From NCBI GenBank assembly GCA_025056255.1, contig JANWVT010000002.1:186001-250000 (forward strand): a stretch of DNA of 64,000 nt, read 5' to 3'. This document shows positions 783-10,147 of this stretch, in pieces (the first letter of the stretch is position 1; each line of letters starts with the position of its first letter). Both the position numbers and the translations under genes were made by a program. Under the pieces are notes generated by a model. The model had not been told where the DNA came from, did no database searches, and was given only the letters and a program-made list of their open reading frames with translations. The DNA comes from Bernardetiaceae bacterium (GTDB lineage: Bacteria; Bacteroidota; Bacteroidia; Cytophagales; Thermoflexibacteraceae).

Positions 783-1592
783 TCATCCTTTAAGCGGTGC
801 GTTTGCTTCTCGTGCCATATATTTAAGCACAACGGTATCCATCCACCCGGGAAACCACTTATTGAAAAATACGGTCAGTTTGCCAACGGTAGTAAGAATG
901 AGTATTTTTTTGCGTTTTACTACTGCTCTGTAAATATGCTCAGCACACTCTTCCGCACTCATCATTTTAGACTCGTCACGAGGAGACTCGCCCTGCGGAG
1001 TGCCATCTTTTGTTAAAGAACGCATGCGAATGTTGGAGGCTGTGAAACCCGGGCAGGCTGTTAGTACATGTACGCCTTTGGGTATCATTTCGGTACGCAA
1101 TACCTCTAAAAAACCTTGCAAGGCAAATTTAGAGGCTGAGTAGCCAGTTCTCCCGGGTAGCCCTCTATAGCCAGCAATAGAGGAAATACCTACCACCGAG
1201 CCTTTGTTGGCAATAATAGAAGGCAGGCAAGCCTTCGTAGCGTAAAGGGCTCCGTAAAAATTAATATCCATTACTTTTTTAACAACCTGCAAATCTACCT
1301 CTTCAAAAAGTGCACGCATAGAAATGCCTGCATTGTTAATCAGAATATCTATTTTGCCAAAATGCTCTATGGTAGTTTGTGCCATTCTTTCGTTGTCTGC
1401 CGGAATGGTAACATCTGCTTGTATGGGCAATACAGTAATGCCCAAATTGCTCAAATGTTGCGCAGCCCGATGCAAGGCATCTATGTCCCTGCCAGTAATG
1501 ACTACTTGTGAGCCGTTGCGTCCAAAAACCTCTGCCAGTGCCTTTCCAATTCCTGATGAGCCACCGGTAATAACAACAACTTTTCCTTTCAT
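783..1592 (-). CDS. SDR family oxidoreductase
   Basis: This is a classical short-chain dehydrogenase/reductase of 269 residues, the usual length for the family. The N-terminal Rossmann motif TGGSSGIG sits at residues 9-16, NNAG at 86-89, and the catalytic Ser138, Tyr151 and Lys155 (YSASK) are all present. It is expected to be a cytoplasmic NAD(P)H-dependent oxidoreductase, but the substrate cannot be read from sequence. The C-terminal extension (WFPGWMDTVVLKYMA) resembles the membrane-associated tail of DHRS7-like SDRs. It is monocistronic and divergent from the DUF4175 gene. A promoter-like -7 element lies just upstream. Confidence 0.85.
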   Translation of the reverse strand: MKGKVVVITGGSSGIGKALAEVFGRNGSQVVITGRDIDALHRAAQHLSNLGITVLPIQADVTIPADNERMAQTTIEHFGKIDILINNAGISMRALFEEVDLQVVKKVMDINFYGALYATKACLPSIIANKGSVVGISSIAGYRGLPGRTGYSASKFALQGFLEVLRTEMIPKGVHVLTACPGFTASNIRMRSLTKDGTPQGESPRDESKMMSAEECAEHIYRAVVKRKKILILTTVGKLTVFFNKWFPGWMDTVVLKYMAREANAPLKG

Positions 1593-1606
1593 TTTTGTTA
1601 AAAAAG

Positions 1607-1635
1607 CAAAACTACAGAACTAATTTGTTAAGCAA
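1607..1635 (-). promoter_or_regulatory. Bacteroidota-type promoter of the SDR gene
   Basis: On the minus strand TAGTTTTG (1614-1607) fits the phylum's -7 consensus TAnnTTTG. A TTG (1635-1633) lies 18 nt upstream, close to the usual 19-21 nt spacing for the -33 element. The start codon follows 14 nt after the -7 element, giving a very short leader. Confidence 0.4.
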
Positions 1636-1767
1636 CGACTTTAATTATGCAAATTAAGATTTAATTTCGGTGTTTAATTTGAACAAATATTCATTTTTAT
1701 TAATTTTATTGATTATATTCTGGCAAACAAAAGTAACGTTTTACCTCTTTGTTGCGTATAATGCGAT

Positions 1768-4700
1768 ATGATGCCCTCAAGTGTTGTATATGAGCAAATA
1801 GTACAAAAATTAAATGCCTACAAGAGAAAATACTACAAAAACATTCTTTTGAAAGGCATTATGCTAACAATAGGCGCCTTGACCGCCTCCTTCATACTGG
1901 TCAATGGCATCGAATATGTGGGAAATTTTAGTTCGTGGGTGCGGGCAATTCTATTTTTCTCCTTCCTTGCAATAACAGCTATTAGTATTTATCAATGGAT
2001 TGTAATTCCCATATTACGGCTTTTTAACTTAAATCGACCGCTTACCAACGAAGAAGCAGCTATTCAAATTGGCAAATACTTTCCTGAAATCAACGACCGC
2101 CTGCTCAACATTCTTCAACTGGGCAAACTCAATACAGAGCAAACAGATTTAATAGCAGCCAGCATAGAACAAAAAGCAAAAACACTGTCCCCCATTGATT
2201 TCCGTGCTGCTATAGACTATACACAGAACAAAAAATACTTACGCTACTTCATTCCGCCTGTACTAATATTACTGTTACTGGCAGCTCTTATTCCACAGAT
2301 TTTTACTGAAACCACACCTCGTTTAATCTATTACTCCAAAACATTTGCACCCAAAGCCCCTTTTTCATTTCAAATACCTGAAAGCCAGCTTATTGTATTT
2401 AAAAATGAGGATTTTACCCTTCAAGTTCGCTTGGTTGGGAGCGCCCTACCATCTGAAGCCTATATTCTATACAACGACCGGCGGGTGAAGATGGAAACCT
2501 TAGATAAACCCGGCATGTTTACTTTTACATTTAAAAATGTACAGAAAGATATTCCTTTTTCCATAGAAGCCTCTGGATTCATCTCTAAGGAATACCTGTT
2601 AAAATTACAGGAAAGACCCAATATGAGCAGCTTTACTGCTTTTCTGGACTTTCCAGCCTATCTGAGAAAAGCAAATGAAAAACTCGCGAACACAGGCAAT
2701 CTTATTGTTCCCCAAGGAACAATAATTAAATGGGTATTCAACACCCAACAAACAGAGCAACTAATTGTTAAATTTCAATCAGACACAGCTGCACAGTTTG
2801 CAAAAGCTAACGGGAATGTGTTTGAGTTTACCAAAAAAGCTATGCAGTCGGGAACTTACACAGTGCAGCTAAAAAACCGCCACAGCACCAACAAAGATAT
2901 CATCGAATATTTTCTCGATGTAATCCCCGACGAATATCCCAGTATTAGCCTAAATCAACTCAAAGATACCGCCCTTTACAACTTTATAGCAATAGCAGGT
3001 AATATCTCCGACGACTATGGCATCAGTCGGTTAGAGCTTAAATACCGTATTTTGAAAAAAGCTAACAACGCTGATAATGCCTACAATAGCATCAAGATAA
3101 ACTTCAATCCTAACCTAATTAGCCAAAGCTACTATCACGAGTTTAACGTAGATAATTTTGGATTAGAGCAAGGCGATAAGTTAGAGTACTTTGTACAAGT
3201 ATGGGATAATGACGGGGTCAATGGCGCCAAAAGTAGCAAAACAGCTATCCAACAATTCAGTATCCCCGACCGACAAGAATTTGCCAAAGAGCTTGAAAGA
3301 GCAGCATCTTCTGCTAAAAATCAACTCGAAAAAGCCTTGCAAAAAGCAGAAGAACTCAAAAAGAGCCTAAGCGAGTTGCAAGATAGATTCAAAGGTAAGA
3401 AAAGGCTGAACTGGCAAGACAAACAAGCCTTAGAGGAACTTATCAAGCGACGTGAAGAACTCACCAAAGAAATTCAGGAGCTGCAAAAGCAAAATGAAAT
3501 CTTTAACCGTAAGCAAGAACGATTTGGTGAACGAGACAGGGAAATTGCTGAAAAAACCGAGCAACTACACGCCCTTATGGAAGAGTTGCTTGACGAAGAA
3601 ACCAAAAAACTTTATGATGAGCTAAATAAACTTTTGCAGCAAGAACTGCAAAACCCCAATAACCTCCAAAATATTTTGGAGGAAATGGAGAAGCGCGAAA
3701 AAAACATAGTTCGCGAGTTAGACCGCGCGCTCGAAATGTTTAAAAAACTCCAATTAGAACAAAAAACCAAAGAAGCAATTAGCAATTTACAAGAGCTGAG
3801 CAAAGAACAAAAGGAGATAGCTGAACAAACTAACGAAAACGCACTTCCCTCAGAGCAGCTCAAGGAAAAACAAGAAGAACTCAACCAAAAATTTGAACAG
3901 CAACAACAACAACTCAAGCAGATAGAACAACTTGCTAAGGAACTACAAAAGCAAGAACAGAAGAATCTGATGGAAGAATTGCAAAACGACCAACAGCAAA
4001 TTGAGCAAAATCAAAAAGAGAGCATTCGGCAATTAGAACAAAAACAGAACCAAAAAGCATCTGATCTCCAACGAAACGCTGCTCAAAAAATGCAGCAAAT
4101 CAGTCAAAAGATGCAACAGATGCAACAATCTGCCGAAGCTAAACAACAAGTTGAAGACTATAACGCCTTGCGCCAGATATTAGAAAATCTCATCAAATTA
4201 TCGTTCGACCAAGAAAACTTGATGCTGCAATTTAAAAACGTTAGACAAGAAGATCCACGTTTTATAGAATTAGGACAACAGCAACTTAGAATTAAAGAAA
4301 ACGCCAAAATTGTAGAAGACAGTTTACTTGCACTTTCCAAAAGAGTATTTCAAATCAAGTCGTTTGTAACTCGCGAAGTAAGCGATATGAACGACTACAT
4401 CAACCAGAGCTTAGAAGAAATAAAAAAACGACATAATAACGTAGCCGCCGGCAAACAGCAGTTTGCCATGAGAAGTATTAATAACTTAGCCCTCATGCTC
4501 GACGATGTGTTGCACCAAATGCAACAAGAAATGGGACAGCAAATGGGGGGGCTCCAATTAGTCAATAAAAAACGAAAAGACCGCCAACAGCAAAACCTTA
4601 GCGAAATGCAGCAATCGCTCAATCAACAAATACAAGAGTTGATGAAAAGCGGTAAACAAGGTAAAGAAATATCGGAACAGTTGGCTAAACTCGCTGCCCA

Positions 4701-5139
4701 GCAAGAAATGATACGCAGAGCCTTGCGCAAAGCAACCGAAGGAAAAATGTTTGATAAAAACGGACAACAAAAAAATGGAAAAGATGGCAGCGGCGGCGAC
4801 ATAGCTAAACTATTGGAAGAAATGGAAAAAACAGAAGAAGACTTGGTAAATCGGCGCTTAACACAAGATTTGATTAAACGGCAAAAAGAAATCGTTACCC
4901 GACTACTCGAGTCGGAGAAGGCGTTGCGCGAACGTGAACAAGACGAGCAACGGGAGGCAGAACATGCCAAGGAGAAAAACAAAACATCGCCAGGCAACTA
5001 TGAAAACTATTTGAAGGAAAAAGCCAAACAAATAGAATTACTCAAAACAGTGCCTCCTTCATTGAATCCTTATTACAAACAAGAAGTCAATGAGTATTTC
5101 AAAAAGATAAATGAATCAGCACCATCAATTAACGATTAA
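1768..5139 (+). CDS. DUF4175-like membrane protein with long coiled coil
   Basis: This 1123-residue protein matches the Bacteroidota DUF4175 family in size and layout. Two hydrophobic segments lie near residues 28-45 and 55-80 and a third near 155-172. A beta-rich extracytoplasmic region (about 180-500) follows, then a very long coiled coil (about 505-950) rich in Gln, Glu and Lys with many heptad-like repeats. The charged C-terminus ends in INESAPSIND. The molecular function is unknown; a structural or scaffolding role in the envelope is inference from architecture. Two in-frame ATG codons (1768 and 1771) could start it. It precedes the RsbW-like gene by 24 bp, with a TAACTTTG promoter-like element overlapping its stop codon, so the downstream genes may also have their own promoter. 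Confidence 0.75.
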   Translation: MMPSSVVYEQIVQKLNAYKRKYYKNILLKGIMLTIGALTASFILVNGIEYVGNFSSWVRAILFFSFLAITAISIYQWIVIPILRLFNLNRPLTNEEAAIQIGKYFPEINDRLLNILQLGKLNTEQTDLIAASIEQKAKTLSPIDFRAAIDYTQNKKYLRYFIPPVLILLLLAALIPQIFTETTPRLIYYSKTFAPKAPFSFQIPESQLIVFKNEDFTLQVRLVGSALPSEAYILYNDRRVKMETLDKPGMFTFTFKNVQKDIPFSIEASGFISKEYLLKLQERPNMSSFTAFLDFPAYLRKANEKLANTGNLIVPQGTIIKWVFNTQQTEQLIVKFQSDTAAQFAKANGNVFEFTKKAMQSGTYTVQLKNRHSTNKDIIEYFLDVIPDEYPSISLNQLKDTALYNFIAIAGNISDDYGISRLELKYRILKKANNADNAYNSIKINFNPNLISQSYYHEFNVDNFGLEQGDKLEYFVQVWDNDGVNGAKSSKTAIQQFSIPDRQEFAKELERAASSAKNQLEKALQKAEELKKSLSELQDRFKGKKRLNWQDKQALEELIKRREELTKEIQELQKQNEIFNRKQERFGERDREIAEKTEQLHALMEELLDEETKKLYDELNKLLQQELQNPNNLQNILEEMEKREKNIVRELDRALEMFKKLQLEQKTKEAISNLQELSKEQKEIAEQTNENALPSEQLKEKQEELNQKFEQQQQQLKQIEQLAKELQKQEQKNLMEELQNDQQQIEQNQKESIRQLEQKQNQKASDLQRNAAQKMQQISQKMQQMQQSAEAKQQVEDYNALRQILENLIKLSFDQENLMLQFKNVRQEDPRFIELGQQQLRIKENAKIVEDSLLALSKRVFQIKSFVTREVSDMNDYINQSLEEIKKRHNNVAAGKQQFAMRSINNLALMLDDVLHQMQQEMGQQMGGLQLVNKKRKDRQQQNLSEMQQSLNQQIQELMKSGKQGKEISEQLAKLAAQQEMIRRALRKATEGKMFDKNGQQKNGKDGSGGDIAKLLEEMEKTEEDLVNRRLTQDLIKRQKEIVTRLLESEKALREREQDEQREAEHAKEKNKTSPGNYENYLKEKAKQIELLKTVPPSLNPYYKQEVNEYFKKINESAPSIND

Positions 5140-5628: not shown

Positions 5629-6114
5629 ATGAGCAGAAAAGTGCATTTCTTTACGGAGAACATCATTTTTAAATTACCCTCCAAAAAAATCTACAAGGAA
5701 TGGATAGCCCATTTGATTGAAAACGTATATCACAAGAAGGTGGGAGAACTAAATTATATCTTTTGTTCAGACCACTATTTACACAGCATTAATATGCAAT
5801 ATCTGAACCATGACACCTATACAGATATTATCACTTTTGATAATTCGGAAAAGGGTTCTAATGAGATTTCAGGCGACGTATTCATTAGCATCGACCGTGT
5901 AACGGAGAATGCGAAGAAATATAACAAAGAAATGCTTAACGAATTAGCACGTGTAATGGTTCACGGCGTACTGCATCTATGCGGCTTTAACGACAAAAAC
6001 GCAAGCGACCAAAAAGCAATGCGTAAAGAAGAGGATAATTGCATACAAATATTAGAAAAGATGCTAAAAGAAGCAGCCGAAGCAAAAGCAGCAGCTATGA
6101 GTCAAAATGTGTAA
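5629..6114 (+). CDS. ybeY: Endoribonuclease YbeY
   Basis: YbeY is a single-strand-specific endoribonuclease involved in 16S rRNA 3' end maturation and ribosome quality control. The metal site is visible as HGVLHLCGF followed by NDKNASDQKAM. The two HxxxH histidines are kept, while the third ligand, His in E. coli (GYDHE), lies in an N-D-K sequence where Asp is the likely substitute. I believe this is common in the phylum. An upstream in-frame TTG at 5617 exists, but ATG 5629 (MSRKVHFF) is the better start, giving 161 residues. The stop codon TAA (6112-6114) is directly followed by a parS site. Confidence 0.9.
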   Translation: MSRKVHFFTENIIFKLPSKKIYKEWIAHLIENVYHKKVGELNYIFCSDHYLHSINMQYLNHDTYTDIITFDNSEKGSNEISGDVFISIDRVTENAKKYNKEMLNELARVMVHGVLHLCGFNDKNASDQKAMRKEEDNCIQILEKMLKEAAEAKAAAMSQNV

Positions 6115-6130
6115 TGTTCCACGTGAAACA
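6115..6130. other. parS: parS centromere site 1
   Basis: TGTTCCACGTGAAACA is a 16-of-16 match to the broadly conserved parS consensus bound by ParB (Spo0J). It begins on the base immediately after the ybeY stop codon. ParB loads at such sites and spreads, and ParA and SMC then segregate the origin region. parS sites usually lie near oriC, so this segment is probably origin-proximal. No parA or parB gene lies in the window. Confidence 0.88.
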
Positions 6131-6160
6131 TATCTAAAACTTCTTCTTTTGAAACACACC

Positions 6161-6200
6161 CACCAAAGGCAATGTTCCACGTGGAACATTGCCTTTGGTG
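6161..6200. repeat. parS: Perfect 40-bp palindrome containing parS site 2
   Basis: The left arm CACCAAAGGCAATGTTCCAC (6161-6180) is exactly mirrored by the right arm GTGGAACATTGCCTTTGGTG (6181-6200) with no spacer. Its centre (6173-6188) is TGTTCCACGTGGAACA, a fully symmetric parS variant. The centre-to-centre distance to site 1 is 58 bp. The flanking 12 bp on each side are not part of the parS consensus, so the extended symmetry is additional. As RNA it would form a long hairpin, but no T-run follows, so a simple intrinsic terminator is unlikely. The right arm contains the -33 element of the mnmG promoter. Confidence 0.9.
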
Positions 6201-6218
6201 CATAATGCGCTAACTTTG
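6188..6218 (+). promoter_or_regulatory. mnmG promoter overlapping the parS palindrome
   Basis: ATTG (6188-6191), 19 nt spacing, then TAACTTTG (6211-6218) fits the Bacteroidota primary sigma promoter TTG-N19-21-TAnnTTTG. The -33 element lies within the right arm of the 40-bp palindrome and directly adjoins the parS core. The likely transcript start is near 6224, about 17 nt before the ATG. Confidence 0.6.
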
Positions 6219-6240: not shown

Positions 6241-8103
6241 ATGTATCCAAAATATGACATCATTGTAGTAGGAGCGGGACACGCCGGATGCGAGGCAGCC
6301 CATGCTGCTGCAACCATGGGAGCAAAGGTGTTGTTGGCTACCATGAACATGCAAACCATTGCACAAATGAGCTGTAACCCAGCAATGGGTGGTGTTGCAA
6401 AAGGACAAATCATCCGCGAAATCGATGCCTTGGGTGGTATGTCTGGTATCATCACCGACCAAACCATGATCCAATTTAGGATGCTTAACCGCTCCAAAGG
6501 ACCAGCCATGTGGAGCCCAAGAGCTCAAAGCGACCGCATGCGTTTTGCCGAAGCATGGCGACTTGCCTTAGAAAAAAATCCTAATGTGGATTTTTGGCAA
6601 GAAATGGTTACAGGATTGCTCATAGAAAAAGGAAAGGTAAAAGGAATTAGAACAGCCCTCGGTATTACTTTTGAAGCAAAAGCCGTCATTCTAACCAATG
6701 GCACTTTTTTAAACGGTCTTATCCATATTGGCGAGAAACAATTTGGAGGCGGTAGAACCGCAGAAAAAGCCGCATTTGGAATTACTGAACAATTGGTGAG
6801 TTTAGGTTTTGAAGCTGGTAGAATGAAAACCGGAACACCTCCACGCGTAGATGGAAGAACACTTCGCTACGAAGCCATGGAAGAACAAAAAGGTGATGAA
6901 CCAGCAGGTAAATTTTCCTATACGGATACCCCCCCACTTACTCACCAAAGAAGCTGCTACATTACCTACACCAACCCCAAAGTACATGAAACGTTAGCTT
7001 CTGGGTTTGACCGCTCGCCCATGTTCAATGGAACAATCAAATCAATCGGTCCTCGTTATTGCCCTTCCATAGAAGACAAAGTCAACCGTTTTGCCGAACG
7101 CGAGCGGCACCAAATATTTGTAGAACCCGAAGGCTGGAATACAATAGAAGTGTATGTAAACGGATTTTCCACTTCCTTACCAGAAGATGTACAATATAAA
7201 GCCCTGCGGATGATTCCCGGATTTGAAAATGCCCGCATGTTTCGCCCGGGATATGCTATTGAGTATGACTACTTCCCTCCTACCCAACTACACCCTACAC
7301 TGGAAACTAAGTTGGTTGAAAACCTATATTTTGCAGGACAAATAAACGGCACCACTGGCTACGAAGAAGCTGCTTGCCAAGGACTGATAGCAGGCATTAA
7401 TGCTTACAATAAAATTTTTGAAAAAGAACCCTTCGTATTAAAACGTTCCGAAGCCTACATCGGTGTACTTATTGATGACCTCATCAATAAAGGGACAGAA
7501 GAGCCTTACCGCATGTTTACCTCGCGCGCAGAGTATCGAATACTGCTGCGGCAAGACAATGCAGACCTTCGCCTTACCGAAAAAGGTTACCGCATCGGAC
7601 TTGCCGATGAACAGCGATACCAAAAAATGTTGCAAAAAAAACAACAAACAGAAAAACTGCTGCAATACCTCAAACAATACAGCGTATCTCCCGAAGAAGT
7701 TAATGGTGGATTGCAGCAAATAAACTCTGCCCCCTTAAGTCAAAAAGTAAAGGCAGAACAAATTATTAAACGCCCTGAAATTAGCTTATTACAACTGGCT
7801 CAAATAGATACCCGATTGGGGCAAGAATTAGCTAATTATAACCAAGAAGCCATAGAACAAGCTGAGATTTTGATAAAATACGATACTTACATTGAAAAAG
7901 AAGAACGTTTAGCTATTCGCCTAAGTAACTTAGATAATATTAAGTTGCATCCATCGCTTAACTACCACGAAATCAAAGCGCTCTCCAATGAAGCACGTGA
8001 AAAATTAAGTCGGTTACGCCCTCAAACATTAGGGCAAGCCTCCCGCATCAGCGGTGTTTCGCCTGCTGATATTTCCATCATTATGGTTTATTTAGACAAG
8101 TAA
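6241..8103 (+). CDS. mnmG: tRNA uridine-5-carboxymethylaminomethyl modification enzyme MnmG (GidA)
   Basis: MnmG is the FAD-dependent partner of MnmE. Together they install the (carboxymethyl)aminomethyl group on wobble U34 of certain tRNAs, using methylene-tetrahydrofolate. The 620-residue length is standard. The N-terminal dinucleotide-binding motif [10 protein letters not shown] is at residues 11-20. The conserved blocks SCNPAMGG (44-51), [13 protein letters not shown] and [18 protein letters not shown] are present, as is the C-terminal helical region ending [18 protein letters not shown]. It is followed 3 bp later by an Ig-like lipoprotein gene, suggesting co-transcription. In many bacteria gidA is close to oriC, which fits the parS sites just upstream. 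Confidence 0.97.
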
Positions 8104-9783: not shown

Positions 9784-10147
9784 CATGAATATTTCGTGAA
9801 CAAAGTATGTACAACACCAGCACAGCACTATCAACAAAGTGAATTGCATGGCTCATTTACTCAAGTCGATGCAACAATAACATCCGATGTTCAATAGTAT
9901 GCAATACTTATTCAACAGGTCCTGATAAATTTAAATACGTGAACAGCGAACTTCAAATCTGCTTCATTCGTTGAATAGGTAAGTTAAGTTGCTATTAATA
10001 ACGCAGTTAGTTTTCATGTATCAATGAATAAGCCTTGCATATTTGTTACATTCCTTGAAAAGCCAAGTACAAATGCAGGCTGTTCAACTTCTACACTAAG
10101 CAACAACAAAAACTTTAAAATTTTTATAGCCTATAGAATTGTTTGAT
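9784..10147. other. Intergenic region without recognised feature
   Basis: These roughly 360 AT-rich bases separate the Ig-like lipoprotein from the TPR gene. I see no strong hairpin, T-run terminator or TAnnTTTG element at a useful position. The only open frames are short and have no motif. Confidence 0.4.

Follow-up and report, generated by a model that had tools for sequence, protein, structure and literature searches.

Two parS sites between ybeY and mnmG as the predicted chromosomal centromere of a Bernardetiaceae bacterium

Two consensus parS sites in the gap between ybeY and mnmG very probably represent the centromere of this chromosome, with the ParB encoded by the parAB genes as their predicted reader. 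A sequence-only reading of the window (the whole stretch of 64 kb that was analysed, C30:186001–250000 of a 303.5-kb contig in a draft genome of 3,389,440 bp and 107 contigs) had proposed a candidate segregation centromere at this locus. The proposal is supported by the uniqueness of the sites, by the ParA, ParB and SMC encoded in the genome, by parS-type residues of ParB, by GC skew, and by conservation of the address among relatives.

The sites are flanked upstream by ybeY (rRNA maturation RNase; 5629–6114, + strand; TIGR00043, E 4.1e-30), which is a frequent partner of parS in relatives, and downstream by mnmG, also known as gidA (6241–8103, + strand; TIGR00136, E 5.7e-260). The gap between the ybeY stop codon and the mnmG start at 6241 measures 126 bp. 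Since the stop codon occupies 6112–6114, site 1 (TGTTCCACGTGAAACA, 6115–6130, + strand) starts on the very next base. Site 2 (TGTTCCACGTGGAACA, 6173–6188) is a perfect palindrome, and the start-to-start spacing of the two sites is 58 bp. The presence of both sites, the direct contact of the first one with the ybeY stop codon and the 58-bp spacing agree with the sequence-only reading, which had also noticed no other intact parS in the window. This last observation can be extended to the whole draft: both 16-mers are the sole sites within two mismatches of TGTTCCACGTGGAACA in the 3,389,440 bp, and a reversed-pattern control gave 0 matches in the same search. The genome-wide search thus revealed no scatter; the two sites cluster within 58 bp at one locus. 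Both fit the 16-bp palindrome which we take to be the general parS consensus, and on this basis they are classed as parS.

At three mismatches one further place appears in the 64-kb window, the palindrome 2706–2721. Counted on both strands, this search of the window gives 6 rows compared with a shuffle mean of 1.17, and 2 of 100 shuffles reach this number. The additional place forms the core, three mismatches from parS, of a 24-bp palindrome (TTATTGTTCCCCAAGGAACAATAA, 2702–2725) inside a long ORF (1768–5139). A chance occurrence of palindromic 16-mers at the ybeY–mnmG locus is practically inconceivable, since both sites lie within 58 bp of each other, the remainder of the 3.39 Mb has no further one, and relatives carry sites at the same place. 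In 1.2 Mb of stretches from these relatives only 4 matches with up to two mismatches were counted as background; 3 of them are at parS loci themselves, which leaves one unrelated match. Chance and scatter were rejected because of the draft-wide uniqueness, the shuffles and this low background.

The cognate ParB is encoded on contig C74 and is the genome's sole match to TIGR00180 (E 8.1e-55). Its gene directly follows, in tandem, the ORF of a ParA-like ATPase. The assignment of the latter as ParA is based on the operon position and on a KGGVGKTT motif, and none of the NCBIfam ParA models scored above cut-off for this ORF. SMC is encoded on contig C85 (1065 bits). Alignment of ParB with solved ParB and Noc structures places R and G where Noc has Q and R. 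These positions correspond to R173 and G201, which discriminate ParB from Noc according to the accessible part of PMC7383237, and by both residues the protein is of the parS-binding type. Residues 172, 179 and 184 are N, Y and K, unlike S, T and A in Caulobacter (counted along the Noc/ParB structure alignment); Lys184 is also the Noc residue. There is a further likeness to the Noc/NBS system, since the protein matches the Noc model TIGR04285 with 242.8 bits, below the cut-off of 315 bits, and Noc chains score highest among its PDB matches. A Noc/NBS identity was nevertheless rejected, because the two discriminating residues are of ParB type and the DNA site is parS.

From known ParABS biology we infer how this centromere would operate. 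A dimer of ParB, made from the parA-parB operon on the other contig, would bind to each of the 16-bp palindromes, close into a clamp in the presence of CTP, and slide over the flanking origin region. The resulting ParB complex would pass the sister origins to ParA and would also load SMC.

Judged by GC skew only, the locus is probably origin-proximal, and the ybeY–mnmG intergenic region probably marks the replication-origin domain. The cumulative skew of contig C30 falls from the left and rises rightward, with its minimum at C30:196000 (window position ~10000), 3.8 kb from site 2. This minimum is broad and flat. The depth of the V over the whole contig has a block-permutation p of 0.022, and the signal is therefore modest. 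The earlier claim that the window lies near oriC is hence supported by skew, measured at the contig level in a 107-contig draft; on the 303.5-kb contig that carries the sites, the minimum was found close to parS and not far away. The inter-ORF stretch at the minimum (9784–10138) is a candidate origin neighbourhood. A cluster of DnaA boxes was not seen near it: TTATNCACA, presumably the DnaA box and used as such for the counts, occurs exactly four times in the 64 kb, with 3.64 expected. Consequently, an oriC of the DnaA-box type at the skew minimum was rejected.

In the present assembly dnaA is located on contig C13 and parAB on C74, and thus neither is linked to the sites. The clearest relative is G058, with a contig of 7.66 Mb that was sampled in 40 stretches. 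The origin fitted by skew is at 7.204 Mb and parS at 7.220 Mb; as skew origin, parS ranks 1 of 201, dnaA 177 and parB 199 of 201. In this genome the skew origin agrees with parS and not with dnaA, and the latter was rejected as an origin marker both for this rank and for its position on another contig in our assembly. In G055 agreement is rougher, although compatible (parS rank 21 of 200). The skew of G015 (rank 71 of 200) and G020 (rank 61 of 200) fits an origin at parS/mnmG poorly, the sampling of both being sparse (20 stretches of 20 kb each). Weak matches to the DnaA and SMC models were also recorded (L005, L283–L289).

The best named relatives of MnmG, among the matches listed, are mostly Cytophagales (Bacteroidota). 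We inspected the best 80 named loci by MnmG similarity among these matches, many of them from congeners and three holding less than 600 bp of upstream sequence. A site with up to two mismatches is present within 600 bp upstream of mnmG in 78 of the 80; it is exact in 69 of these 78 loci, and 57 have at least two sites. The two loci lacking an upstream site are L065, which appears to be the same contig as that of G006, and L123. A second site is often found at the ybeY stop codon. In 70 of the 78 loci the nearest site begins 22–40 bp before the mnmG start codon, the full range being −22 to −185; for the window the corresponding value is −68, and for G002 about −450. Sites near mnmG are often located downstream of a TATCTTTG box, i.e. 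in the predicted leader of the transcript.

Within the order, exact sites occur in 37 of 59 genomes (our own included), with one to four per genome and 0 in the control. A site upstream of mnmG is present in 40 of the 59, exact in 22 and with one or two mismatches only in 18; of the 37 genomes lacking an exact site next to mnmG, 35 were searched for such degenerate ones, all but G004 and G023. In another 13 genomes the exact sites lie away from mnmG or on a different contig, a class that comprises exact matches only and that on drafts may reflect a contig break; in G009 mnmG is at a contig edge. No site was found in the remaining 6. Exact sites are also present in 31 of the 39 class-level genomes outside the order, all 31 being among the matches listed. 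Of these, 26 have a site no more than 1 kb from mnmG (upstream or flanking in 25, just downstream in G103), 4 do not, and one (G217) has no listed place of mnmG. In the phylum sample 144 of 198 genomes carry exact sites, and the control pattern matched in 1 of the 198; adjacency to mnmG was assessed for the class-level genomes, the more distant 149 genomes of the phylum being outside that tally. All tallies for order, class and phylum were counted by eye. Taken from these comparisons of gene neighbourhoods, the parS address between ybeY and mnmG is inherited and conserved in many relatives.

Two further arrangements were observed. In eight class genomes (G173, G189, G110, G185, G236, G150, G070 and G139) parS lies on both sides of mnmG, ~1.9 kb apart. 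In the 1.1-Mb genome G033, mnmG, parS, parA and parB have stayed together in a block similar to the ancestral origin cluster (L040: parS at 1464, mnmG 1489–3342, parA 3885–4640; parB at G033:C14:7168–7701).

The short distance of the nearest site to the start codon in most named loci, often within the predicted leader, would also suit a ParB that tunes mnmG transcription from here, and thus the modification of tRNA, in step with segregation or with the number of origin copies. As far as PMC5521831 was available, ParB of P. aeruginosa represses promoters beside parS3 and parS4. Such a role is unlikely in our view. The position of the nearest site varies considerably, as described above, and the 13 order genomes with sites elsewhere have none that was found next to mnmG. 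In addition, parS is still beside ybeY in three genomes in which mnmG is elsewhere (G010, L027; G012, L034; G024, L023), which argues against a pure mnmG operator.

Site 2 of the predicted centromere is centred exactly in a perfect palindrome of 40 bp (6161–6200; arms of 20 bp, no spacer). With a loop of 0–8 bases allowed, no longer perfect inverted repeat occurs in the 303.5-kb contig. As RNA it would form a hairpin of −31.9 kcal/mol with a z score of −7.3 (−7.27), and the scores in all four examined genomes of the genus (our own and G001–G003) range from −6.3 to −7.3. An extended palindrome centred on the site between ybeY and mnmG was found in 4 of the 4 genomes, with the arm sequences CACCAAAGGCAA in the window, ATTAGGACTAA in G001 and CAAGGTAA in both G002 and G003. 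In an alignment of the four 40-mers, two of which have the same arms, 91.7% of the cells pair and 9 of 18 pairs are changed on both sides. None of 500 shuffles scored as high in covariation, and the signal is lost when the columns are slid by one; for one of five covariation measures, that of further pair types, 36 of the 500 shuffles matched the observed value. The parS core is nearly invariant while the arms vary. Arms that change together around a fixed core suggest selection on a hairpin around the centromere.

Just downstream of the palindrome, TAACTTTG (6211–6218, + strand) is a likely promoter element of mnmG. This putative function is assigned because the octamer matches TAnnTTTG, which we take to be the −7 promoter element of Bacteroidota. 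The location of the palindrome after ybeY and just before this element suggests termination of transcription or insulation. Site 2 might hence be a dual element, namely parS and at the same time the centre of a hairpin under selection, which terminates transcription of the ybeY operon or insulates the mnmG promoter, keeping polymerases off the ParB nucleation site. This reading is compatible with the centromere and adds to it. We consider it a real possibility, somewhat short of an even chance. In its favour are the perfection and length of the palindrome, the double changes in the differing arms, and the hairpin scores of all four genomes. Furthermore, the stem is followed by a T-run in G001, and in G016 (L024) the site is located exactly between two convergent ORFs.

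The stable stem-loop of an intrinsic terminator is present at 6161–6200. On the + (mnmG) strand, however, a T-run after the stem is absent in the window, in G002 and in G003. A scan for terminators called the palindrome on the minus strand only, with 6 calls in the region compared with a shuffle mean of 6.0. A classical intrinsic terminator is therefore not established, and a strict rho-independent terminator was rejected for the lack of the T-run on the + strand in the window. A known structured RNA was also rejected, as the Rfam search gave no family above the gathering score and only microRNA models far below threshold (E 0.59–0.97).

The wider collection of 186 distinct sites (our own included) points in both directions for the dual element. 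Arms of at least 8 nt beyond the 16-mer are present in 9 of them, compared with a null mean of 0.11 and a maximum of 2. Arms are shorter than 8 nt in the other 177, and long arms are thus a recurrent extra rather than the rule. This genus contributes four of the nine long-arm sites and one other genus two, so that about five lineages are represented, and the hairpin is consequently not general. The covariation itself also weighs less by its four sequences, of which two share their arms. A general extended dyad around parS was rejected, because in the 186 sites no flank positions rise above the shuffled null apart from 1–3 and, by a weak margin, 8 and 18.

Of the two sites in G001 (L035), the first has decayed (TGTTTCAGGTGAAACG) and the exact one embedded in the hairpin is intact; hence, the hairpin site may be more strongly kept. 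In G055 (L017:1481–1536) and G040 (L016) the single exact parS is ~25 kb from mnmG. The one of G055 is enclosed by a still longer hairpin with a 26-bp stem (−42 kcal/mol, z −11), which closely follows the 3' end of a minus-strand ORF.

More tentatively, and with the odds rather against it, the centromere of this genus may be a composite. A fixed parS core would sit within a hairpin whose arms are kept by compensatory change and which acts as a transcription barrier or terminator, or as an extruded DNA structure, shielding the ParB nucleation site between co-directional genes. In Bacteroidia more broadly, parS–mnmG would be a conserved origin tag, kept while dnaA and parAB moved.

Assignment of the sites to ParB is also reflected in the co-occurrence of both. 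Of the 52 genomes that are at least 90% complete, 46 have a ParB match of E ≤ 1e-45, and all of these carry a site; none was found in the 6 others. The six genomes without a site retain mnmG; three have no ParB and three a weak or divergent one. They belong to two families of the order (G013, G032 and G047 to one; G025, G041 and G056 to the other), so that the absences presumably represent about two events and not six. These two families appear to be without strong ParB and without parS near mnmG, and G041 encodes a divergent ParB-like protein of 282 aa (E 2.4e-41).

The 16-mers could in principle be a cis element of ybeY/mnmG for another protein, or an RNA hairpin alone, instead of ParB sites. 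The leader position at mnmG and the potential to form a hairpin would fit this explanation, as would three incomplete genomes that have a site but no ParB match (G012, 62% complete; G036, 89%; G043, 84%). We regard it as very improbable, given the six genomes without strong ParB in which no site was found though mnmG remains, the 13 of 59 with the site away from mnmG, the near invariance of the core while the arms change, and the Rfam result.

The centromere predicted here is of a known kind. It shares with the chromosomal parS of ParABS (Soj/Spo0J) systems in Bacillus, Caulobacter and Pseudomonas the same 16-bp palindrome family, the small number of clustered sites, the parS-type residues of ParB, the encoded ParA and SMC, and an origin-proximal position by skew. 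It differs from these systems in that parAB and dnaA are on other contigs, that parS is located between ybeY and mnmG, and that one site is inside a 40-bp perfect palindrome with covarying arms; the latter is the feature that could become a variant. An origin gene cluster with gidA, parA, parB and others has been described (PMC2099444, as far as accessible). The gidA gene of that list is mnmG, which is near the skew minimum here too. Unlike that cluster, which the block of G033 resembles, our assembly has dnaA and parAB on contigs other than that of mnmG.

In gut Bacteroidetes, the available part of PMC10197239 already reports that parS clusters (searched with TGTTTCACGTGAAACA and 2 mismatches) together with GC skew call origins, and that the origin is not systematically at dnaA. 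The use of parS and skew over dnaA as the origin mark is the same as here. That part of the article contains no mention of mnmG, ybeY or palindromic arms. It describes no known condensin in its two Bacteroidetes, unlike the present genome with its encoded SMC. Among the matches listed from the open-licence PMC literature (title and start of abstract), we found neither a link of parS to mnmG or ybeY in Bacteroidota nor covarying hairpins at parS; the former may already show in the survey of Livny et al. 2007.

For genomes in which dnaA can mislead, a search upstream of mnmG provides a sequence handle on both origin and centromere. In the accessible text of PMC7333895, what fixes parS positions in evolution is posed as an open question. 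Our results bear on this question because the address persists here unlinked to dnaA and parAB, and in three genomes with mnmG located elsewhere. To judge from the covarying palindrome, insulation from transcription may be one of the forces fixing the position of parS.

A search for tRNA genes in the 64-kb window gave none. The segment 20001–28000 of the window has a G+C content of 0.50 and 0.47 in its 4-kb bins compared with 0.42–0.44 in the neighbouring ones, and was possibly acquired.
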